Of a DNA stretch of 35,927 bases, positions 8,090 through 17,622 are shown piece by piece. Position 1 is the first letter of the stretch; the number at the start of each line of letters is the position of its first letter. The notes under the pieces are model-generated. The model saw only the letters and a list, made by a program, of their open reading frames with translations. It searched no databases and was not told the origin of the DNA. The DNA comes from Verrucomicrobiota bacterium (GTDB lineage Bacteria; Verrucomicrobiota; Verrucomicrobiia; Chthoniobacterales; Terrimicrobiaceae): NCBI GenBank assembly GCA_026398255.1, contig JAPLTG010000003.1, positions 1 to 35,927 on the forward strand, given 5' to 3'. The position numbers and the translations under genes are program-made.

Positions 8090-9559
8090 TTACCCATCCA
8101 GCGGACTCCGCACCCCGACACCCGGCCGTCTCAGCACATGTGTGTAGATCATCGTCGTGCTCACATCGCTATGCCCCAGTAATTCCTGCACCGTCCGGAT
8201 ATCCGCTCCGCCCTCCAGCAAATGCGTGGCAAACGAGTGCCGCAGCGTATGCGCCGTGATTTTCTTCGCGATCCCCGCCCGCCGCACCGCCACGCTCAGC
8301 GCCTTACCCACACCGTTGTCATGCACATGATGCCGCCGCCGCACCTCGCTTCGCGGATCCTTGCCCACGCTCTTCGATGGAAATACCCACTGCCACTCCC
8401 AGCGCTCGCCCGCTTTCGGATCCTTCACCCCATACGCACCGGGCAGCCACACGCCAGGCAATCCCGCCGCGCGATCCTCATTGAAAAGAATCCGCACCCT
8501 CTCCAAATGCTCCCGCAACGGCTCGCGAAGGGTCTCCGGCAGCATGACCACCCGGTCTTTCGATCCCTTCCCCTCGCGCACAATCACTTGGTGGCGGTCA
8601 AAATCCACATCCTTCACCCGCAGGCGGATCGCCTCCATCATCCGCATCCCTGTTCCATAAAGCAGCCGGCCGATCAGCGACATCGTGCCCTCCAAACCAC
8701 CCAGCAATCGCCGCACCTCCTCGCGCGACAACACCACCGGCAACCGCGTCGTCCGCTTCGCCCGCAGCGCATCCACTTTGCCCAAGGGACGCTTCACCAC
8801 CTCGCCAAAGAAAAACAATAACGCCGAAAACGCCTGATTCTGCGTGGCTGCCGCCACCCCTCGCCCAACCGCCAATTCCTCCAAAAAAGCCCGCACCTCC
8901 ACCTCGCCAGCCGCCTCCAAGTCCGCGCCACCCCACGCCAGCCAATTCAAAAACCGCCCCACCCAATGCAGATACGACTCCTCTGTGCGCAACGCGTAGT
9001 GCCGCACCCGCAACGCCCGCCGCATCACCTCCAGAGCCTCCTGGTTCCGCTCTGCCCGCGGCGCGGCAGCGCCCAGCGAAACCCCAGGGTAGGGATGGCT
9101 CGCCGAGCTGTCCGACTTCCATGGCGACTCCATTCCATGAACTCGATCGTTGGCCAACACCCTCTCCGTGCCCCCTGTGTCCTCGGTGGCCAATCCCGCG
9201 CGGCTCGCCTTCAACCGAAATTTCGGCCCCACCCGCCCGAAGCGATCCTGCCCCCACGACCAACCCTCCACCTCCGATAAAAACACTTCCAACGCCATCC
9301 GCGCCTGCTCACGCGCAAACTCTTGCGCCGAAGTTCCCATCGGCAACGACTCCAAAAACAACCTCGCCGCCACCTCAGGAATTTCGCTTGATTCCGGCCC
9401 CGCACCCCGACAAAACTTCAGGAACCTCTCAAGATGCACACTCCACCAATACAGCGTCTTATCCGGCACCGCCAAACTCCGCCCCTGCACCATCCGCACC
9501 ACCCAATCCTTTGGATGCTCCGCAACAATTCTCTCTTTCCCCTCGCTCATGCCTCCCAT
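8090..9559 (-). CDS. intI: Integron integrase with duplicated N-terminal SAM-like domain
   Basis: This is a tyrosine recombinase of the integron type. Numbering from the ATG at 9559 (489 residues), the catalytic set is R306 (GTGMRMMEAIRLR), K331 (EGKGSKDRV), H437 and R440 (HTLRHSFAT), H463 (LLGHSDVSTTM) and Y472 (IYTHVL). The IntI-specific insertion is present (GVWLPGAYGVKDPKAG, EWQWVFPS, RRHHVHDNGVGKA), as is the GVRSPLD ending. Residues about 170-489 correspond to a complete IntI. Ahead of them is a second SAM-like core-binding domain (about 10-120) and a linker whose TEDTGGTER part is translated from a dispersed repeat. The frame is open to a TTG at 9634; the ATG at 9559 or 9550 is more plausible. 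Confidence 0.95.
   Translation of the reverse strand: MGGMSEGKERIVAEHPKDWVVRMVQGRSLAVPDKTLYWWSVHLERFLKFCRGAGPESSEIPEVAARLFLESLPMGTSAQEFAREQARMALEVFLSEVEGWSWGQDRFGRVGPKFRLKASRAGLATEDTGGTERVLANDRVHGMESPWKSDSSASHPYPGVSLGAAAPRAERNQEALEVMRRALRVRHYALRTEESYLHWVGRFLNWLAWGGADLEAAGEVEVRAFLEELAVGRGVAAATQNQAFSALLFFFGEVVKRPLGKVDALRAKRTTRLPVVLSREEVRRLLGGLEGTMSLIGRLLYGTGMRMMEAIRLRVKDVDFDRHQVIVREGKGSKDRVVMLPETLREPLREHLERVRILFNEDRAAGLPGVWLPGAYGVKDPKAGERWEWQWVFPSKSVGKDPRSEVRRRHHVHDNGVGKALSVAVRRAGIAKKITAHTLRHSFATHLLEGGADIRTVQELLGHSDVSTTMIYTHVLRRPGVGVRSPLDG
9162..9193. repeat. Dispersed ACAGAGG-type repeat, copy C (inside intI, in frame)
   Basis: The minus strand reads TTGGCCACCGAGGACACAGG followed by GGGCACGGAGAG. 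This is a diverged copy of the elements at 4562-4593 and 7383-7412. In the integrase frame it encodes LATEDTGGTER, in the linker between the extra N-terminal domain and the canonical IntI part. Confidence 0.65.
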
Positions 9560-9599
9560 ACTCCAACGCCCACCCGAATTGTCCACTTTTTTCTCGCCT

Positions 9600-9642
9600 T
9601 GATGGTTAAATTGGACTTTTGTGTGACCAAACAACGTTCTCC
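9600..9642 (+). other. Putative attI recombination site
   Basis: GTTCTCC at 9636-9642 resembles the R' cores of the array (GTTCTGC, GTTCGCC, GTTAGGC). It lies between intI and the first cassette, 77 bp upstream of the favoured intI start, which is where attI is expected. No long inverted repeat is present, consistent with attI rather than attC. The exact extent and the integrase-binding direct repeats were not resolved. Cassette (Pc) and integrase promoters probably lie here, but no convincing -35/-10 pair was found. Confidence 0.45.
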
Positions 9643-10130
9643 AGAGAATTTAAGACACCATGACCAGCACCAACAGCAGAGAAGCCAGCGTCTCCCTCGA
9701 CGGGACGGATCATCGAGTTAAGATACTTTTCGAGCATCTTCCCCGCGCGGGAGATCATATCCGACACCTCGACAAGACTTACCGTGTCGATCAGGTCGTG
9801 TTCAACGCGGCAGATAGCAGTTTGGGGCTTTTCGGGTATCCCAACCTTTATTGCGTTCCTGTCGAATAACACTTGGTCGCGTGGTATTACCGGATCTTTT
9901 AGCAGTTGGACAGTCCTATGCCCTTCGAGTTTATCCTCCCGGTATGGAGCCTGAATGAATGCCTCGATTACAAGACCTCCGACTTCTACTCCGGGGTGGT
10001 TGGCGACTGCCGTCTCCACGAGAGCACCCTCTTTTTGTAGCCCCAGAACGTCAGTTCCGTGCTCGCCTATAACATATCCACACGCAGGCTCTCCGCCCGC
10101 TACGTATTTAAAGCAATAGATGTATTTCAT
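9606..10130 (-). CDS. Cassette 1 reverse-strand hypothetical protein
   Basis: A 174-residue minus-strand frame starts at the ATG at 10130, just inside the attC1 side of cassette 1. Its N-terminal half (MKYIYCFKYVAGGEPACGYV, then VETAVANHPGVEVGGLVIEA and HRTVQLLKDPVIPRDQVLF) looks protein-like. The 320 bp downstream of the plus-strand gene carry no plausible plus-strand gene. The C-terminal third is antisense to the plus-strand gene and reads through the cassette boundary at 9636 into the attI region before stopping. This suggests the natural end is lost or that this part is not coding. No homology is recognised. Confidence 0.35.
   Translation of the reverse strand: MKYIYCFKYVAGGEPACGYVIGEHGTDVLGLQKEGALVETAVANHPGVEVGGLVIEAFIQAPYREDKLEGHRTVQLLKDPVIPRDQVLFDRNAIKVGIPEKPQTAICRVEHDLIDTVSLVEVSDMISRAGKMLEKYLNSMIRPVEGDAGFSAVGAGHGVLNSLENVVWSHKSPI
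9660..9869 (+). CDS. Cassette 1 small protein, unknown function
   Basis: The ORF starts 24 bases inside the first cassette, the usual position for a cassette gene. The 69-residue product reads VKILFEHLPRAGDHIRHLD, then KTYRVDQVVFN, and ends GYPNLYCVPVE. The LPRxGDxIxxxxxTYRVxxVVF pattern suggests a small all-beta protein, as seen in many hypothetical cassette products. No signal or membrane segment is present and no function is assigned. It is overlapped on the opposite strand by another ORF (9606-10130); this one has the more family-like sequence and the expected orientation. Confidence 0.55.
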   Translation: MTSTNSREASVSLDGTDHRVKILFEHLPRAGDHIRHLDKTYRVDQVVFNAADSSLGLFGYPNLYCVPVE

Positions 10131-10190
10131 GATTTCATTTGATCACCGATCAGACCCCACTCGTTGGCAGGGGTCGCCAATAAACAAAGA

Positions 10191-10279
10191 CTCGAACAAG
10201 ACGCTTCATGCAACCCGCCGGAGCGTCTTTCTTACAATCGGAGTATAGCGTGGGCGGGTGCATGAGCTAGGCGTTAGGA
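10191..10279 (+). repeat. attC1
   Basis: R'' CTCGAAC (10191-10197) and R' GTTAGGA (10273-10279) bracket arms TTCATGCAACCCGCC and GGCGGGTGCATGA. These pair fully except for one extra A in the left arm. It is 89 bp long and ends cassette 1. Confidence 0.8.
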
Positions 10280-10284
10280 ATCAA

Positions 10285-10704
10285 ATGAATCGCAAGCTCC
10301 GAACGGTTTTGATTGTTCTCGCCCTCATCATTGGTGGGGGTTTGGTCTGGATTACAATTCAGGATGTATTCGGCGATACGAAATCCATAATTCACAATTC
10401 ATCTGTCATTCTGTCGGTGACGCCCAACTACAAGACTGATCCTCCTGAATGGATTGTTGATTCCGTATTCAAAGGAGAGACAGACCCCCAGTTCAACCTG
10501 CCTCCAGGGACTAAGCTTTCAGCAGCACCGGGACATTTTTCCGTTTCGGGCAAGCGACCAGACTCGTTGATCGTTTGTTATGCCCATCGTATTCTTAATT
10601 TTGGCCCGCTCCAAGCTCAAAACATTGCAGCGGTCTACGCTGATAAGATTCCGGCCTTCGGGATGACAAAAGAGGAATTTATCGCTTTGTGTTCAGCGAA
10701 ATGA
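10285..10704 (+). CDS. Cassette 2 membrane-anchored hypothetical protein
   Basis: The ATG at 10285 lies 12 bases into the cassette. The 139-residue product has a short basic N-terminus (MNRKLRT) and one transmembrane helix (LIVLALIIGGGLVWITIQ). An extracytoplasmic domain of about 110 residues follows (SSVILSVTPNYKTDPPEWIV, then FNLPPGTKLSAAPGHFSVSG). The helix has no lipobox or obvious cleavage site, so it is probably a signal anchor. No family is recognised. A GTG at 10258 lies in frame but inside attC1 and is unlikely. attC2 begins 4 bases after the stop. Confidence 0.7.
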   Translation: MNRKLRTVLIVLALIIGGGLVWITIQDVFGDTKSIIHNSSVILSVTPNYKTDPPEWIVDSVFKGETDPQFNLPPGTKLSAAPGHFSVSGKRPDSLIVCYAHRILNFGPLQAQNIAAVYADKIPAFGMTKEEFIALCSAK

Positions 10705-10708
10705 ATAA

Positions 10709-10822
10709 TCCTAACGAGCCGATGGAGCAAATCCCCGTCCCTTCGGGACTTCTGTCACACATCCTGCTTGCGCAGGCTGTGCGCCAGAAGCAGGCGGGGA
10801 TTCCTCATCGGGGACGTTCTGC
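10709..10822 (+). repeat. attC2
   Basis: R'' TCCTAAC (10709-10715) and R' GTTCTGC (10816-10822). The arms CCGATGGAGCAAATCCCCG and CGGGGATTCCTCATCGG are complementary with small bulges. The loop contains a further CCCTTCGGGAC hairpin. It is 114 bp long and closely related to attC6 and attC8. Confidence 0.85.
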
Positions 10823-10921
10823 TATAAAAATATGAAAACAGAAAACCAAAAACACGAAAGGATGAATAAAGTGAGTATAATCATGAATAACGCCTGCTTC
10901 GCCAGCGGCGGCATTGGCGGC

Positions 10922-12142
10922 ATGAAGCGTGCCGTGACCGCCTTGATGATCTTGCACTTGGCTGGTGGCAGCCTTTGCGCGGAGTCCGCCGGTTCGGCCG
11001 CAGGAGAACAGGCGAAGACCCGACGGTATGATGTCGCGGCCTACGTTTGGCCTGCGTATCAGTTCAAGGACGAACGCTGGAACCAGATTTTCAAGCAGGG
11101 GATCGGCGAATGGGAGATCATCCGCGAATGCAAGCCGGGATTCCCAGGACACGAGCAGCCGAACGTTCCGCTCTGGGGTTATGAAGACGAGTCGGATCCC
11201 AAGGTCATGGAGAAAAAGATCGCCACCGCCGTCAAGTACGGCGTGAATGTGTTCATCTACGACTGGTACTGGTACGAAAACCAGCCGTTTCTTGAAAAAG
11301 GCATCAACGACGGCTTCCTCAAAGCAAAGAATTGCCAGGATATCCAGTTCTACCTGATGTGGGCCAACCACGATGGGGGATCGGGGTGGGACAAGAAGAA
11401 GGCACTGCCCAATCCTGTCGTCTGGCCCGGGGCGGTCGACCGTGCAACCTTCGATACGATCGTTGACCGGGTCATCAGCCGCTACATGAGCCAGCCGAAC
11501 TACTACAAGATCGACGGGAAGCCGGTGTTTTCCGTCTACGAACTGGGCACCTTGATCAAAGGTCTGGGCGGGGTGGAGCAAACCAGGGACGCCCTCGCTA
11601 GCTTCCGCAGCAAGGTCAAGGCTGCCGGATTCCCCGATCTGCACTTTCAGACCATCCTGTGGGGGCAGATTCCTGCCAGCGTCTCGCAGGTGCCCGGCGA
11701 CAAGACCCAATCGCGGAACAATACAATGACGACCCTGGGTATCGATAGCCTGACGAGCTACCAATGGGTCCACACCATTAGTCCCAAGGGGCCGTATAGC
11801 GGCTGGGCAGACCGTGCGGTCGCTCAGTGGCCAGCGTGGGCCAAGGAGTTCTCTATTCCGTACTTCCCCCACGTTTCCATCGGGTGGGACACGAACCCCC
11901 GCCGCAATGCCTATGACCATGCGACCATCGTAGAGCGATCGCCCGAACGGTTCCGGGCGGCGCTCGAATCGGCGCGGCAGCATGTCGATCAGCACGGCCT
12001 GCACCCACTCATCACTGTCAACGCGTGGAACGAGTGGAGCGAGGGCAGTAGCCTGGAACCATGTGAACGCTACGGCTACAAATTCCTCGAAGCGGTCAAG
12101 AGCGTCTTCGGGGCCGACGGGCTCGGGGGCGGCAAGAATTAA
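10922..12142 (+). CDS. Cassette 3 secreted WbsX/GH99-like protein
   Basis: The mature protein begins RRYDVAAYVWPAYQFKDERW and ends with VNAWNEWSEGSSLEP before the C-terminal helix. With WNQIFKQGIGEWEIIRECKP and VNVFIYDWYWYENQPFLEKG, this is the signature of the WbsX / glycoside-hydrolase-99-like family (TIM-barrel carbohydrate-active proteins, found both as O-antigen biosynthesis proteins and as secreted enzymes). The start at 10922 (MKRAVTALMILHLAGGSLCA) gives a clean signal peptide. In-frame ATGs at 10832 and 10862 would add 30 or 20 residues and put the hydrophobic stretch inside. At over 1.2 kb it is much longer than usual cassette genes and has higher GC than its neighbours. The substrate is unknown. 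Confidence 0.85.
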   Translation: MKRAVTALMILHLAGGSLCAESAGSAAGEQAKTRRYDVAAYVWPAYQFKDERWNQIFKQGIGEWEIIRECKPGFPGHEQPNVPLWGYEDESDPKVMEKKIATAVKYGVNVFIYDWYWYENQPFLEKGINDGFLKAKNCQDIQFYLMWANHDGGSGWDKKKALPNPVVWPGAVDRATFDTIVDRVISRYMSQPNYYKIDGKPVFSVYELGTLIKGLGGVEQTRDALASFRSKVKAAGFPDLHFQTILWGQIPASVSQVPGDKTQSRNNTMTTLGIDSLTSYQWVHTISPKGPYSGWADRAVAQWPAWAKEFSIPYFPHVSIGWDTNPRRNAYDHATIVERSPERFRAALESARQHVDQHGLHPLITVNAWNEWSEGSSLEPCERYGYKFLEAVKSVFGADGLGGGKN

Positions 12143-12353
12143 AACAGCCCTCCGCGTGAGACCCAGGGCTCATCATAGCCCATTAGCCTCGGTTGTGGGA
12201 GATTCTTTACGCTGCGATGGATGAAGAGACTGATCCAATGACAGTGCTCGGACGTCTGGCTCAGTAAGAATTCACTGGCGAGATCCAGATCCCTTGGTAG
12301 AAGCAAAGCCATAGATTTCCACATACAATGTCCTATCCGCATTCATCGTTTCG
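12143..12353. other. Non-coding stretch in cassette 3 between the GH99-like gene and attC3
   Basis: About 210 bp follow the stop of the WbsX-like gene before R'' of attC3. A minus-strand frame of 67 codons is open here, but nothing supports it. GCCC/GGGC inverted repeats near 12147-12180 could form a small hairpin without a T-tract. The unusually long 3' tail hints that the gene came from a longer source segment. Confidence 0.4.
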
Positions 12354-12480
12354 GCAGAACAAGCCGCGCCACGCAACCGCTAGTAGCCGTTCTGTTGAGA
12401 TGATTTTCCGTAACTACAACCCTAAACCCGTGAGCGACTTCCGCCGCAGCTACTAGCGGCACGTGCGCTCTACGTTCGCC
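12354..12480 (+). repeat. attC3
   Basis: R'' GCAGAAC (12354-12360) and R' GTTCGCC (12474-12480). The arms GCCACGCAACCGCTAGTAG and CTACTAGCGGCACGTGC pair, with an extra base in the left arm. It is 127 bp long. Confidence 0.8.
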
Positions 12481-12506
12481 CAAGAATCAAGCCCACCGCT
12501 GACACC

Positions 12507-13091
12507 ATGAATAAACTCATCGCACTTTTGTTCGCGTTTACATCGTCGTTCAGCGTGATAGCCGCAGACACGCCATTCACATGCAGCATTTCGGCGGAGA
12601 AGGCCACCATTATGCAGGGAGAGGTTCCGCGAGTGAAGGTGTCCATCGCCAACAAGAGCGGCAAAGATGTCCACTTAGTTGGCAGTCTTGATGGCTCAGA
12701 TGTTGGTTGGAGATTCCCAAAGTGCGGTTTCGAGCTACTCGACACCGCTGGAGAGCCTGTGCCTCAGAAGCAGCCCATGGGCCGGTGCGGGAACATGAAT
12801 ACACTCGAAACCACTGATTTTGTTAAGGTTGCCGCAGGGGCCGAGTTTAATCCATCTGGACAGGGCTTCTTTGGCTCCTGGCAGCTCTATCGCTTCAAGC
12901 AGCTACCGCCGGGAACATACATCTTGAGGTTTTACTATCAGACCTCAACCAAGGGTGTTCAGGACTACTTCGGAGACGAGCGAATGATGGGGCAGAAGAC
13001 TGTTTCCCCTGAGATTCAGAAGCTTTTCGAGGCCGTCCCGTTGACCGACATCAAGAGCAATGACCTCCAGATCACAGTGCAACCGAAGTAA
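12507..13091 (+). CDS. Cassette 4 secreted Ig-like hypothetical protein
   Basis: The 194-residue product has a signal peptide (MNKLIALLFAFTSSFSVIAA) followed by a beta-rich domain. The pattern is ATIMQGEVPRVKVSIANKSG, then WRFPKCGFELLDTAGEPVPQ, a QLPPGTYILRFYYQT strand, and a C-terminal DLQITVQPK. This resembles exported Ig-fold domains of the BsuPI-like kind, which often bind other envelope proteins, but no specific family is claimed. Two conserved-looking cysteines (the C in FPKCGF and in GRCGN) could form a disulfide. It starts 33 bases into the cassette and ends 7 bases before attC4. Confidence 0.75.
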   Translation: MNKLIALLFAFTSSFSVIAADTPFTCSISAEKATIMQGEVPRVKVSIANKSGKDVHLVGSLDGSDVGWRFPKCGFELLDTAGEPVPQKQPMGRCGNMNTLETTDFVKVAAGAEFNPSGQGFFGSWQLYRFKQLPPGTYILRFYYQTSTKGVQDYFGDERMMGQKTVSPEIQKLFEAVPLTDIKSNDLQITVQPK

Positions 13092-13097
13092 AAGCGG

Positions 13098-13190
13098 GGC
13101 GAACAAAACGGATGCAGGCAACGGCTCGTATGGCATCTGTCTTGTCAGTGACGCCCTCCGTTCGCCGTCGCCTGATCCGAGCCGTTAGCC
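13098..13190 (+). repeat. attC4
   Basis: R'' GGCGAAC (13098-13104) and R' GTTAGCC (13184-13190). The left arm CGGATGCAGGCAACGG pairs with the right arm CCGTCGCCTGATCCG except for an extra left-arm base and one mismatch. It is 93 bp long. Confidence 0.85.
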
Positions 13191-13279
13191 AACATAACTA
13201 ACATGCCACTCAAAAGCTATATTCAAATAGGTAAAGAGTATCTATAATATTATATAGAAAAGGTATATCTGTTATTTAA

Positions 13280-13435
13280 ATGAATTTTTATTCCAGAAAA
13301 CTTAGAGCGGCGGGGAGGTTTTGGGGGTATTCCAAGGTTTTTGTGCTTCCGAGGGGTAAGTTTTTCATTAATTTTGGGCAGGATGAAGCATTTCCTTGTT
13401 GGCAAGCCAAGGATTATATAAATTATTGCATTTGA
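13280..13435 (+). CDS. Possible 51-residue protein in AT-rich cassette 5
   Basis: Cassette 5 (13185-13707) is markedly AT-rich between 13200 and 13580, unlike every neighbour. The best plus-strand frame encodes MNFYSRKLRAAGRFWGYSKV, then FVLPRGKFFINFG and ends KDYINYCI. It is rich in aromatic and basic residues, with no signal or membrane segment and no recognised family. An ATG at 13203, close to the cassette start, is followed by only 14 codons, so the original gene may be broken. A minus-strand frame (13250-13573) is low-complexity and looks like chance. The cassette may be non-coding or a remnant. Confidence 0.3.
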   Translation: MNFYSRKLRAAGRFWGYSKVFVLPRGKFFINFGQDEAFPCWQAKDYINYCI

Positions 13436-13581
13436 GAACACTCTTTTATGAGATATATAAGAAAGACTATTCTTTTTACCACTATATAAGATGTTTATAT
13501 AAGTATTATAGTTTTTATGAGTATTATTTTCCAAAGTATTTTGGGGCGGCGGCTTGTTTGTTTGAAATCTCAAAAAGCAGA

Positions 13582-13713
13582 TGCTAACAAAGCGATCCTG
13601 CTAACGGCAACCCGTCCGGACTTTACTTCAGAAAGCTGCTGGCAACTCATCGCCGCCCCGTTCACAACCTGCCACTTTCCACGGGATGCCGCAGCAGATC
13701 GCGGACGTTGGGC
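13582..13713 (+). repeat. attC5
   Basis: R'' TGCTAAC (13582-13588) and R' GTTGGGC (13707-13713). The left arm GCGATCCTGCTAACGGCA and the right arm TGCCGCAGCAGATCGC pair over nearly their full length, with extra left-arm bases. It is 132 bp long, the longest in the array. Confidence 0.85.
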
Positions 13714-13766
13714 AAACAAATAACGCTTCCTTTTTCGCCTCATTTTACTATCAATAAGGCGCTATA

Positions 13767-14342
13767 ATGAAACCCATACTAACCACAATACTTGCAGCCA
13801 CTCTCGGACTCACGTCGGCTTTAGCACAGTCGGCAAAGTCAGACTTTTTTACGTTTTCTGCCAAATCAGCGCAAAGAGGAAAAACGGAAGACAAATACAA
13901 AGACAGTTCTGGAGCGTCAGTGCGAGAGACTGTAAGAAGCCAAGCGGTTGATGCCTCTGTGTTTTTTACACGTGGACCCTCAGTGCAGTATTCGGTTCAG
14001 TGCTTTTTTATAGCACAAGACGATCACACCAAAGAACAGTATATTTACGACGCAAAGACCCAACCGGTCGAAGGAAGTAAAGGAACTTTCACATTCACCG
14101 CGCCGCCACTCACTGGAACTGTGCGGCGATCAAAAAGCTTTCCGGTGTCAGGGATGACTACCTCTGGAGAGCTTGTCTCAGGTTCATTGTATTATAGCAG
14201 CACATCAACCGGATCAAAAATATATGGCTGGCTCACACGTTTGATAGCAGATGGGAAACCTGTTCGTATCGAGACCAACCAATCGCAATTGAAAACATTA
14301 ACTGAGAAGAATCCACAGTATTTTGATGCAGCATTTGAATAA
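13767..14342 (+). CDS. Cassette 6 secreted hypothetical protein
   Basis: The 191-residue product has a clear signal peptide (MKPILTTILAATLGLTSALA, cut before QSAKSD). The beta-rich mature part includes FFTFSAKSAQRGKTEDKYKD, VQYSVQCFFIAQDD, GTFTFTAPPLTGTVRRS and SKIYGWLTRLIADGKPVRIE. The strand pattern suggests a single exported beta-sandwich domain. No family is recognised and no catalytic residues stand out. It starts 60 bases into the cassette and stops 9 bases before attC6. Confidence 0.75.
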   Translation: MKPILTTILAATLGLTSALAQSAKSDFFTFSAKSAQRGKTEDKYKDSSGASVRETVRSQAVDASVFFTRGPSVQYSVQCFFIAQDDHTKEQYIYDAKTQPVEGSKGTFTFTAPPLTGTVRRSKSFPVSGMTTSGELVSGSLYYSSTSTGSKIYGWLTRLIADGKPVRIETNQSQLKTLTEKNPQYFDAAFE

Positions 14343-14350
14343 CACAAAAG

Positions 14351-14475
14351 GCCCAACAAGCCAGTCGACCTAATCCCTGTCCCTTCGGGACTTTCGGCAC
14401 AGTTCCTGCTGATCCGCTTCGCGGGCAGGAACAGTGCCGAAAGCAAGCAGGGATAGGTCACTGGGGACGTTCGCT
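14351..14475 (+). repeat. attC6
   Basis: R'' GCCCAAC (14351-14357, a perfect RYYYAAC) and R' GTTCGCT (14469-14475). The inner arms CGGCACAGTTCCTGC and GCAGGAACAGTGCCG pair, and the CCCTTCGGGAC hairpin is shared with attC2. It is 125 bp long. Confidence 0.85.
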
Positions 14476-14480
14476 AGCAT

Positions 14481-15008
14481 ATGAAATGGGGTAGACAAAT
14501 CGGCGTTGCAATGAGTGAGCCGGCTGAGGAATTGTTTCTGCAGTTTCTCCGCCGCACGGCCAGCATCAGAATTTTTGTCTCCCACGCTCCTCAGCCGGAG
14601 TTGCTGTGCTTGGATCGTCTGCCTCCGCGCAAGTCCGGAAAAACACAGTTCTTCCTGTGGAACACCGATTACCCGTGGACTCCAGACATAGCCGTGGCCA
14701 GTAATGGGGCGTCATACATTCGTGACATTGACTCAGCTCCGGTCATTGAGTATGACCGCGATCCATTGACACTGGGATGCTATAATAGCCATAGGGGGCG
14801 CATATTCTGGAGGAAGGGCCTCACGCCCGGCGGCTCTTATTCTTTTCAAAACGCAGCTTATACCTACTCGTATGACGCCGAGCAGTTTGCCGGCTGGTAT
14901 AGCCAGGCGGTGCATTGGATCAAAAAAAACAGCAAACCTGTGAAATTGAAAAACGGAGACATTCAGTATCGTGTCAACTCGCCCTCGCCGTGGTGGAAGT
15001 TCTGGTAA
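14481..15008 (+). CDS. Cassette 7 first hypothetical protein
   Basis: The 175-residue product starts 12 bases into the cassette; an in-frame ATG at 14511 (MSEPAEELFLQFLRR) is an equally good start. It is probably cytoplasmic, with an N-terminal helix, then RKSGKTQFFLWNTDYPWTPD, DIDSAPVIEYDRDPLTLG, SHRGRIFWRKGLTPGG and a final aromatic tail SPSPWWKFW. The VIEYDR...GRIFW pattern resembles uncharacterised proteins of phage or cassette origin, but no family is named. No complete attC separates it from the next gene. Confidence 0.7.
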   Translation: MKWGRQIGVAMSEPAEELFLQFLRRTASIRIFVSHAPQPELLCLDRLPPRKSGKTQFFLWNTDYPWTPDIAVASNGASYIRDIDSAPVIEYDRDPLTLGCYNSHRGRIFWRKGLTPGGSYSFQNAAYTYSYDAEQFAGWYSQAVHWIKKNSKPVKLKNGDIQYRVNSPSPWWKFW

Positions 15009-15028
15009 CCGCATGCTGACCGTTCGCC
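15003..15028 (+). repeat. Possible remnant of an attC right arm inside cassette 7
   Basis: GTTCGCC at 15022-15028, preceded by GGTAACCGCATGCTGACC, resembles the L'-R' half of the neighbouring attC sites. No matching left half is present between the stop at 15008 and this site. Two cassettes may have fused by loss of most of an attC. Confidence 0.35.
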
Positions 15029-15050
15029 GAGGTAAACAACGCTGATCGCC

Positions 15051-15497
15051 ATGGGTTATTCCATCACGCTCAACAGACCTGAGCCGAGCACTGGCATCTC
15101 CGAGCAAGAGTGGAGAGACTTTGTGACCAGTCGACCCGAACTCAAGATTGTAAAAGAGACCGCAAACTTCATCACCGTCATTCTTGATGGAGACGACAGC
15201 CTTGCTCTTCATTATTCAACAGTGGATGCCTCAGTTTTCACCAATAATCCGAAAGGGCCGAGGATCATCGAGTATATGGCGTCTATTGCTCCTCACTTTG
15301 GGGGAGTTGTGACTGGCGATGAGGGAGAAACCTTTTCGTCTCGCGCAGATTGGGGCACCCAGAGTGATTGGGACAGTCAGCCGATCTTTGCGGAGAAGCC
15401 TTGGTGGAAGCGCGAGCTTTCCGGTGGTAAAAAGGTTGTTTTAGGAGTGCTTCTCGGAGTTGTTGCCATAATTATCAAGCAGTTGTTTTTTCCATGA
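15051..15497 (+). CDS. Cassette 7 second protein, C-terminally membrane-anchored
   Basis: The 148-residue product has a soluble N-terminal part (MGYSITLNRPEPSTGISEQE, then RDFVTSRPELKIVKETANFI and DASVFTNNPKGPRIIEYM). It ends in a single hydrophobic helix (KVVLGVLLGVVAIIIKQLFF) preceded by basic residues. This is the layout of a tail-anchored inner-membrane protein with its domain in the cytoplasm. The opening residues resemble small proteins of about 110 residues found in many bacterial accessory regions, but no function is known. It starts 22 bases after the attC remnant and ends upstream of attC7. Confidence 0.7.
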   Translation: MGYSITLNRPEPSTGISEQEWRDFVTSRPELKIVKETANFITVILDGDDSLALHYSTVDASVFTNNPKGPRIIEYMASIAPHFGGVVTGDEGETFSSRADWGTQSDWDSQPIFAEKPWWKRELSGGKKVVLGVLLGVVAIIIKQLFFP

Positions 15498-15528
15498 TTG
15501 CGCTACAGAAGACAATCGACCAAACAAG

Positions 15529-15655
15529 GGCGAACAAAGCGCTGGTGCCAACCGCCGGGGCTGCTTTTTCGTCCATGCTTTCCGGAACTCTAACCCGCTA
15601 TCCCGTCTCCACGCTTACCCCCGCCCCGGCGGCCGGCACAGCTTAGACGTTAGCC
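15529..15655 (+). repeat. attC7
   Basis: R'' GGCGAAC (15529-15535) and R' GTTAGCC (15649-15655). The left arm GCGCTGGTGCCAACCGCC with GGGGC pairs with the right arm GCCCCGGCGGCCGGCACAGC, with bulges. It is 127 bp long. Confidence 0.85.
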
Positions 15656-15735
15656 AAGAAATATCACATTATGTTGATTGAAAAGCTGCTTTACCAGATC
15701 CACATCGTCATTCCCTTCTTTTTCCCACGCTTGCG

Positions 15736-16017
15736 ATGCTTTGCATCAAGTCTGTGTGCAAGGATTTGCCTGCCCGCGCAGTCTCAATATCAATATTCGC
15801 AAGTATTGTATCGCTGGCCGTCTTCTATTTCCTGCACCTCACGCTCAATGGACGGTTCCCATATGTTTACCCAGCATCAAAACCAGATGGGCAAACGGGA
15901 TTGGGAGACGCTCTGATTGTAATGATGGCCGTGGCCGCCTACCCTGTTGCGGTCGTCGCGGCGGGACTTACAGTATATCGAAACCGAGACCAGGTGAATA
16001 AAAACAGAAATGGCTAA
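15736..16017 (+). CDS. Cassette 8 small membrane protein (probably frameshifted at its 5' end)
   Basis: The 93-residue frame has two transmembrane segments, VSISIFASIVSLAVFYFLHL and ALIVMMAVAAYPVAVVAAG. A short loop separates them (NGRFPYVYPASKPDGQTG) and a basic tail follows (YRNRDQVNKNRNG). The start at 15736 is 86 bases into the cassette, unusually far. An ATG at 15671, 21 bases in, opens another frame reading MLIEKLLYQIHIVIPFFFP. One extra T in the run at 15719-15723 would join the two into a protein of about 115 residues. Either the gene is damaged or the consensus is one base short. It ends at attC8; the stop overlaps R''. Confidence 0.65.
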   Translation: MLCIKSVCKDLPARAVSISIFASIVSLAVFYFLHLTLNGRFPYVYPASKPDGQTGLGDALIVMMAVAAYPVAVVAAGLTVYRNRDQVNKNRNG

Positions 16018-16125
16018 CGAGCCGATGGACCCAATTCCCATGCCTGCGGCACTTTTGGCACGTCGCCTGCGGTGCGGGCTCGCATGCCAAAAGCATGTGG
16101 GAGCAAGTGATCGGGGACGTTAGGC
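16012..16125 (+). repeat. attC8 (last of the array)
   Basis: R'' GGCTAAC (16012-16018) and R' GTTAGGC (16119-16125, canonical GTTRRRY). The arms GCCTGCGGCACTTTTGGCA and TGCCAAAAGCATGTGGG pair, and the outer arms CCGATGGACCCAATTCCC and GGGAGCAAGTGATCGG pair. It is 114 bp long and very similar to attC2. Confidence 0.88.
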
Positions 16126-16169
16126 AACAAAATAATCGCCTTCCCGCAATTTCAGGGTAAAATTCCTAA

Positions 16170-16589
16170 ATGATCACTCAAGAGATCAGGACCCTACCGA
16201 TCGACGAGAAAGTTCGGATTATGGCGGCGATTTGGGAAGATATGCGTGATCACTATGAGGACGCGCCAATTTCCCAAGATGTCATCGATTTATTGAAGGA
16301 GCGCCGATCACGGATTAACCGTGGCGAAGCCCAACTTCTCGATTGGGACAAAGTGAAGTTCGCAATCGGACGAGGACGAAGAAAATCCTCATTTCAGAGG
16401 ATGCCTTCGGCGCGTGCCACAACCTACCTTCCAGTCGGTGGATGTTTCAGTTTTTCCCTCCATGAAAAAATTGGCACGAGAACTGCGGGATACTCCTCGC
16501 CGCATGGAAAAATGCTAAAAAAGAAACAAATCGCACCCTCGAGCGGCTTGAAGGTGCTCAAAAAAACACACCAAACACAGAATGGCTAA
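16170..16589 (+). pseudogene. Addiction-module antitoxin (PF09720-type) whose stop is lost; partner toxin start also lost
   Basis: Residues 1-69 (MITQEIRTLPIDEKVRIMAA, then WEDMRDHYEDAPI, DLLKERRSRINRGEAQLLDW and DKVKFAIGRG) match the addiction-module component family (TIGR02574/PF09720), normally about 70 residues. At 16376-16379 the DNA reads ACGA. If it were ATGA, the antitoxin would stop at exactly 69 residues, and a toxin would start in the overlapping frame as MKKILISEDAF, like the usual RelE/ParE partner. Here the antitoxin frame reads on for 70 atypical residues to 16589, overlapping the glnII start. The toxin frame ends after about 28 codons without a toxin core. The pair looks dead. 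Confidence 0.7.
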
Positions 16590-17622
16590 ATACAAACTCG
16601 AATACATCTGGCTCGACGGCTACGAGCCCGTCCGCAACCTTCGCAGCAAGACCCAGCTCAAAGACTTCGCTTCGTTCCCCAAGCTAGAAGCCCTTCCTAA
16701 ATGGGGCTTTGACGGCAGCTCCACTCAACAAGCCCCTGGCGGCAGCTCTGATTGCGTGCTCGTGCCCGTGGCCGTCTACCCCGACAGCACCCGCAAAAAT
16801 GGCGCGCTCGTCATGTGCGAAGTTTATAATGCCGACGGCACACCCCACCCATCCAATGACCGCGCCACCATTTTGGATGATTCCAATGCCTGGTTCGGCT
16901 TCGAGCAGGAGTATTTCTTTTATCAAGACGGACGCCCCCTCGGCTTCCCGGAAAATGGATACCCGGCTCCACAAGGACCTTACTACACTGGCGTCGGCTA
17001 CAAAAATGTTGGCGATATCGCCCGCCAGATCGTCGAGGAGCATCTCGACATCTGCCTCGATGCCGGCATCAACCACGAAGGCATCAACGCCGAGGTCGCC
17101 AAGGGCCAGTGGGAATTTCAAATCTTCGGCAAAGGCTCCAAGCGCGCCGCTGACGAGGTCTGGGTCGCTCGCTACATCCTCCAGCGCCTTTGTGAAAAAT
17201 ACGGCATTGATATCGAATACCACTGCAAACCGCTCGGCAATACCGACTGGAATGGCTCGGGCATGCACGCCAATTTCTCCACGAAATACATGCGCGAAGT
17301 CGGCGGCAAGGACTACTTCGACAAGCTCATGGCAGCATTCGACAAATTCAAAAACGAACACATCGCCGTGTATGGCCCCGACAACCACATGCGCCTGACC
17401 GGTCTCCACGAAACCCAGAGCATCGACAAATTCTCCTGGGGCGTCGCAGACCGAGGAGCCTCGATCCGTGTTCCGCACAGCTTCAAGAACAATGGCTGGA
17501 AAGGCTACTTGGAAGATCGCCGTCCGAACTCCCAAGGAAATCCCTACCAAATCGCCAGCCGCATCCTTCAGACGATCGCCTCGGTTCCGACCGGCAAGGC
17601 GCCCGCCAAGAAGGGCAAATAA
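16582..17622 (+). CDS. glnII: Glutamine synthetase type II
   Basis: The enzyme makes glutamine from glutamate, ammonia and ATP. The 346-residue length and sequence are of the eukaryote-like GSII class, not the 470-residue GSI. Motifs are LPKWGFDGSSTQQAPG, WFGFEQEYFF (metal-binding Glu pair), GINAEVAKGQWEFQIFG, NGSGMHANFSTKYMR (substrate and ATP site), GLHETQSIDKFSWGVADRGA, and the C-terminal GYLEDRRPNSQGNPY. The start MAKYKLEYIWLDGYEP fits the family. GSII is not regulated by the GSI-type adenylylation loop, which is absent here. A strong terminator follows, so the gene is probably monocistronic. It marks the return to core genome after the integron. Confidence 0.97.
   Translation: MAKYKLEYIWLDGYEPVRNLRSKTQLKDFASFPKLEALPKWGFDGSSTQQAPGGSSDCVLVPVAVYPDSTRKNGALVMCEVYNADGTPHPSNDRATILDDSNAWFGFEQEYFFYQDGRPLGFPENGYPAPQGPYYTGVGYKNVGDIARQIVEEHLDICLDAGINHEGINAEVAKGQWEFQIFGKGSKRAADEVWVARYILQRLCEKYGIDIEYHCKPLGNTDWNGSGMHANFSTKYMREVGGKDYFDKLMAAFDKFKNEHIAVYGPDNHMRLTGLHETQSIDKFSWGVADRGASIRVPHSFKNNGWKGYLEDRRPNSQGNPYQIASRILQTIASVPTGKAPAKKGK

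Follow-up and report, generated by a model that had tools for sequence, protein, structure and literature searches.

The DNA analysed here (the window; 35,927 nucleotides of contig JAPLTG010000003.1, from a Verrucomicrobiota bacterium) raises the question of how an antitoxin gene came to run in frame into the start of a glutamine synthetase gene. Antitoxins of the PF09720 type are expected to be about 70 residues long and to have a stop codon that adjoins or overlaps the start codon of their toxin gene. In contrast, the frame that opens with the ATG at 16170 is 139 codons long, and ACGA stands at 16376-16379 in place of ATGA. A sequence-only reading of this locus had proposed that a single T-to-C change removed the antitoxin stop and the toxin start at once, leaving a dead toxin-antitoxin (TA) module.

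The antitoxin frame and the remains of the toxin

The bases of the window are indeed ACGA at the point where a 69-residue antitoxin would stop and a toxin would start: the frame has GGA as codon 69 (16374-16376) and CGA as codon 70 (16377-16379). The match to PF09720 spans residues 9-62 of the 139-residue product, with 38.9 bits against a cut-off (gathering score) of 23.3. As had also been proposed, the fused frame enters the start of glnII, closing with TAA at 16587-16589 and overlapping that gene by 8 bp (ATGGCTAA, 16582-16589). The features of this region are as follows (G015 is the sister genome described below and L103 a homologous locus).

16135 to 16169, plus strand: block kept upstream of the antitoxin in all close homologs (alignment of five homologs), probably the cassette's own promoter
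16170 to 16376, plus strand: antitoxin body, 69 codons, PF09720 (Unstab_antitox; Pfam, 38.9 bits)
16376 to 16379, plus strand: ACGA, derived state of an ATGA overlap (antitoxin stop TGA and toxin start ATG), from homologs
16377 to 16589, plus strand: read-through extension of the antitoxin frame, 70 codons and stop, with the 8-bp overlap with the glnII start (translation)
16379 to 16412, plus strand: toxin remnant, codons 2-12 (KKILISEDAFG) and one base, aligned to the intact G015 toxin
16412 to 16413, plus strand: junction of a 294-bp deletion, no microhomology (alignment with G015)
16413 to 16457, plus strand: tentative remnant of the cassette's attC, right half, to the inferred end of the array (homology to G015 and L103; 9-bp arm ATCCACCGA/TCGGTGGAT)
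about 16471 to 16487, plus strand: sigma-54 type promoter of glnII, TTGGCAC-N5-CTGC (motif in relatives)
16582 to 17622, plus strand: glnII, glutamine synthetase type II (377 bits with NF041605, short of the 500 that this model requires; relatives share the start codon)

The frame from 16376 reads TKKILISEDAFGACHNLPSSRWMFQFFPP*, in which the toxin start motif is present and the toxin core is absent. Only toxin codons 2-12 are left in the window, and this toxin gene no longer shows the sequence type of the ParE toxin family (PF05016). By homology, the lost toxin is nevertheless assigned to that family: PF05016 is matched by seven of eleven intact toxin homologs, and when all eleven are combined into a profile, it hits PDB 8c26, Toxin ParE2, with an E value of 3.9e-5. 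None of the curated models matches the G015 toxin itself. The possibility that the toxin had relocated within the genome was rejected, as there is no second copy and the two nearest toxins elsewhere (at C34 and C26) are only 45-46% identical. The same genome has a second PF09720 match (L004, G000:C44:3169-3282), which covers profile positions 1-37 only and has no toxin noticed behind it.

The block at 16135-16169 is probably the cassette's own promoter, based on its retention in the close homologs. A plain sigma-70 consensus scan gave no match.

An intact copy at the same site in a sister genome

In a DNA search of relatives, a genome of the same genus, G015 (uncultured Spartobacteria MAG ERR2206776_bin.60, record CALFPA010000015.1), matched the window at 98% over 16130-16412 and at 97% over 16413-16800, with 294 bp between the two matches in G015. 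At the same place upstream of glnII, G015 carries a 69-codon antitoxin, ATGA, and a 99-codon toxin (MKKILISEDAIGDLNDGFLFYEAQ...), followed by glnII; the flanks of the orthologous locus are about 97% identical to those of the window at the DNA level. The proposal that one base change had removed both the antitoxin stop and the toxin start is upheld by this locus, and the resemblance of the window to a toxin start reading MKKILISEDAF is not a matter of chance, since the same G015 locus carries the intact toxin.

The comparison also accounts for the toxin frame lacking its core downstream, which the sequence-only reading had noted: the cause is a separate lesion. Between 16412 and 16413, 294 bp of the G015 sequence (exactly 98 codons) are absent from the window, and the junction can be placed to the base (GGCG/CGTGCC). 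The missing piece ran from toxin codon 13 through codon 99 and the stop codon, and it took in the left half of the attC that belonged to the cassette. The distance from the end of the deletion to the sigma-54 promoter of glnII is 58 bp.

Intact homologous pairs were found at other loci as well, and the close ones all have ATGA: G015, L103 (antitoxin 86% identical), G056 (77%) and G039 (58%). Most remote PF09720 homologs of the order have the same one-base overlap, with TGA overlapping an ATG or GTG start. The overlap in close and most remote homologs alike indicates that T is the ancestral and C the derived state. The ACGA allele is carried by one assembly only. Intact close homologs have antitoxin frames of 70-78 codons and a length of 139 occurs only in the window; the idea of a natural family of 139-residue antitoxins was rejected, as no close homolog is that long. 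Two broken antitoxin relatives without a toxin were also seen, L106 (G002:C154, 1414-1512) and L105 (3001-3186), of which one lacks the N-terminal half and the other the start codon and the C-terminal end. No relatives were found on plasmids or in viral contigs.

The antitoxin protein is 99% identical to that of G015, and its coding sequence differs at two of 207 bases. In glnII, 30 of 1041 bases are changed, of which 25 are synonymous. The few changes in the antitoxin compared with glnII imply either that the decay is recent or that the antitoxin body is still somewhat constrained, and two differences are too few to separate these.

The extension of the antitoxin frame spans the sigma-54 promoter and the leader of glnII. 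In other members of the genus that lack the module this frame is open for only 4 to 61 codons, so that it does not amount to conserved coding sequence, and the final frame is already open in G015 by chance (72 codons). The second half of the 139-codon frame is of non-coding origin and ends in the glnII start by chance. In nearly all family relatives examined, a distance of 105-119 bp separates a sigma-54 type motif from glnII, and a sigma-54 gene (rpoN) is present in the genome. Much of the genus shares the glnII leader (16494-16581) at approximately 77%, and its GCCG and CGGC blocks do not vary. No known RNA family was detected in the window, including the leader, at Rfam gathering thresholds. 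A structured RNA in the leader was considered unsupported, as RNAalifold on 12 leaders gave six pairs and zero compensatory change.

The integron setting

Upstream of the antitoxin is an integron integrase gene followed by a series of attC-like sites, a context that the sequence-only reading had overlooked:

8090 to 9634, minus strand: integron integrase gene intI (TIGR02249, 414.6 bits against a cut-off of 265)
10191 to 10279, plus strand: attC-like site 1 (arm scan; folding)
10709 to 10822, plus strand: attC-like site 2 (arm scan; fold z -6.5)
12354 to 12480, plus strand: attC-like site 3 (arm scan)
13098 to 13190, plus strand: attC-like site 4 (by eye, below the scan threshold; GGCGAAC ... 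GTTAGCC)
13582 to 13713, plus strand: attC-like site 5 (arm scan)
14351 to 14475, plus strand: attC-like site 6 (arm scan; fold z -7.9)
15529 to 15655, plus strand: attC-like site 7 (arm scan)
16012 to 16125, plus strand: attC-like site 8, immediately before the antitoxin cassette (seen by eye, under the threshold of the scan; GGCTAAC ... GTTAGGC)

The locus has the hallmarks of an integron, with an integron-type tyrosine recombinase beside an array of eight attC-like sites that share one orientation. Six of these sites were found by an arm scan that returned almost none in shuffled sequence, and two by eye. Single-strand folds of sites 2 and 6 are far better than those of shuffles, while for site 8 five of 200 shuffles fold as well. 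One additional arm-scan match (13433-13499) is AT-rich and was taken as false.

The start of the TA cassette abuts the 3' end of an attC-like site in the window, G015, L103 and G056, with differing sequences upstream. In L103 and G056 there is also an attC-like site behind the toxin, so the pair looks like a complete cassette there. In the window, the attC at the end of the TA cassette has lost its left half to the deletion. Past the toxin stop, G015 carries a homolog of the left half of the L103 attC. A complete attC behind the G015 toxin was not accepted: the left half is clear from the L103 homology, and the fold is no better than those of shuffles, for which reason the right half and the right-hand end of the cassette are tentative. 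Judged by this sequence context, the TA module closes the cassette array of a chromosomal integron, and the array stops a short way before the sigma-54 promoter of glnII.

The G015 assembly is itself a MAG, with the integron split over two contigs. One contig ends with eno, fmt, pyrH, frr, yqeY and intI, and near the end of another lie the TA pair, glnII and the gene that follows it, a layout that fits the same integron at the same place. The proximity of intI to glnII is observed in the genome of the window (G000) only and is likely for G015. It was rejected as a genus-wide trait, as the other genus members fetched have the two genes on different contigs.

Most of the cassette ORFs in this Spartobacteria-type verrucomicrobial genome (window 8090-16125) have no Pfam match. 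One cassette (10832-12142) encodes a 436-residue protein, which is long for an integron cassette, with a strong match to PF14307 (Glyco_tran_WbsX; 165 bits) and weak similarity to glycosyl hydrolase family 99. The segment at 13195-13580, between two attC-like sites, is very AT-rich (down to 18% G+C per 60 bases) and is apparently a cassette without a clear gene. Relatives of the integrase in other genus members (L086, G010:C2; L092, G013:C35) have stop codons or are split, suggesting that the integron decays in several lineages.

Decay of the cassette and alternative readings

We consider that the locus is a decayed type II TA cassette, comprising a PF09720 antitoxin and a ParE-family toxin, that was the last of a chromosomal integron and was damaged by the deletion and by the T-to-C change at 16377 (probability approximately 0.92). 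Ancestrally, ATGA served as the overlap of antitoxin stop and toxin start. This lineage lost nearly the whole toxin and one half of the cassette's attC to the 294-bp deletion, and ATGA became ACGA through the T-to-C change, with the antitoxin body staying intact as the start of the 139-codon frame. Once the toxin was lost, the shared stop and start would have had no function and the T-to-C change would be expected to be neutral; the reverse order, with the base change before the deletion, is equally possible. The earlier view of the module as dead is supported by this account and its loss of activity appears probable, but the point change is not required as the sole cause of its death, the deletion being a separate event.

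Integron TA cassettes are reported to carry their own promoters and to turn toxic to the cell upon excision (PMC11023631). With its toxin gone, the cassette in the window should be unable to turn toxic on excision, and with half of its attC gone, no excision would be expected through that site.

Selection on the antitoxin alone is possible, as the body is nearly unchanged and still scores well above the Pfam cut-off. We consider it unlikely, however, that this is a solitary antitoxin kept by selection, for example against related ParE toxins, with only the toxin discarded. The two ParE-like toxins elsewhere in the genome would provide potential targets, and L105 and L106 are likewise antitoxin remnants without a toxin. 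However, closeness to G015 by itself accounts for the few changes, the protein now bears 70 extra residues of non-coding origin, and the truncation of L105 and L106 themselves is in keeping with drift.

It is improbable that the C arose from faulty sequencing or assembly, or the 294-bp gap from misassembly, and that the real genome has an intact module. Only a single assembly of this species was seen, but the two lesions are separate yet mutually consistent, the junction is clean with flanks matching the sister at about 97%, and there is no second toxin copy able to cause a collapse. Least probable of all is a co-option in which the fused frame would couple translation from the cassette promoter to glnII through ATGGCTAA, allowing sigma-54-independent glnII expression: the end of the frame falls exactly within the glnII start, the antitoxin is preceded by a conserved block resembling a promoter, and overlapping stop and start codons can couple translation (PMC6728339), but the final frame is open by chance in G015 too and unconserved in the genus, and the sigma-54 promoter is retained. 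If this very doubtful reading were true, the addiction cassette would have become an upstream translated frame feeding ribosomes into glnII, and a dying integron cassette would influence nitrogen assimilation.

The decayed cassette resembles the TA cassettes of the Vibrio cholerae superintegron and other sedentary chromosomal integrons (PMC11023631, PMC8618304) in its two-gene TA organization, its attC neighbours and a chromosomal integron integrase. It differs from these in having lost the toxin and half of the attC, such that killing of cells that lose the cassette is not expected, and in that the host belongs to a Spartobacteria-type verrucomicrobial lineage. It shares with PF09720/ParE-family (PF05016) type II pairs the antitoxin domain, the gene order and, in the intact homologs, the one-base ATGA overlap; unlike these pairs, the window has lost the stop and start, and its toxin is cut after codon 12. 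Similar to orphan or degraded TA modules, it retains the antitoxin and has lost the toxin, but its ancestral state can be read base by base from the intact copy that the sister genome carries at this site.

For annotation, the locus carries a warning, as half of the 139-residue "antitoxin" is derived from non-coding sequence. What happened here is ordinary decay of a mobile addiction cassette, recorded with unusual clarity through the intact module in the sister genome, which fixes the ancestral state. The locus is a clean natural example of the death of an addiction module in an integron, in which the toxin and the shared stop and start are gone and the antitoxin remains, with the mobility of the cassette probably lost too.
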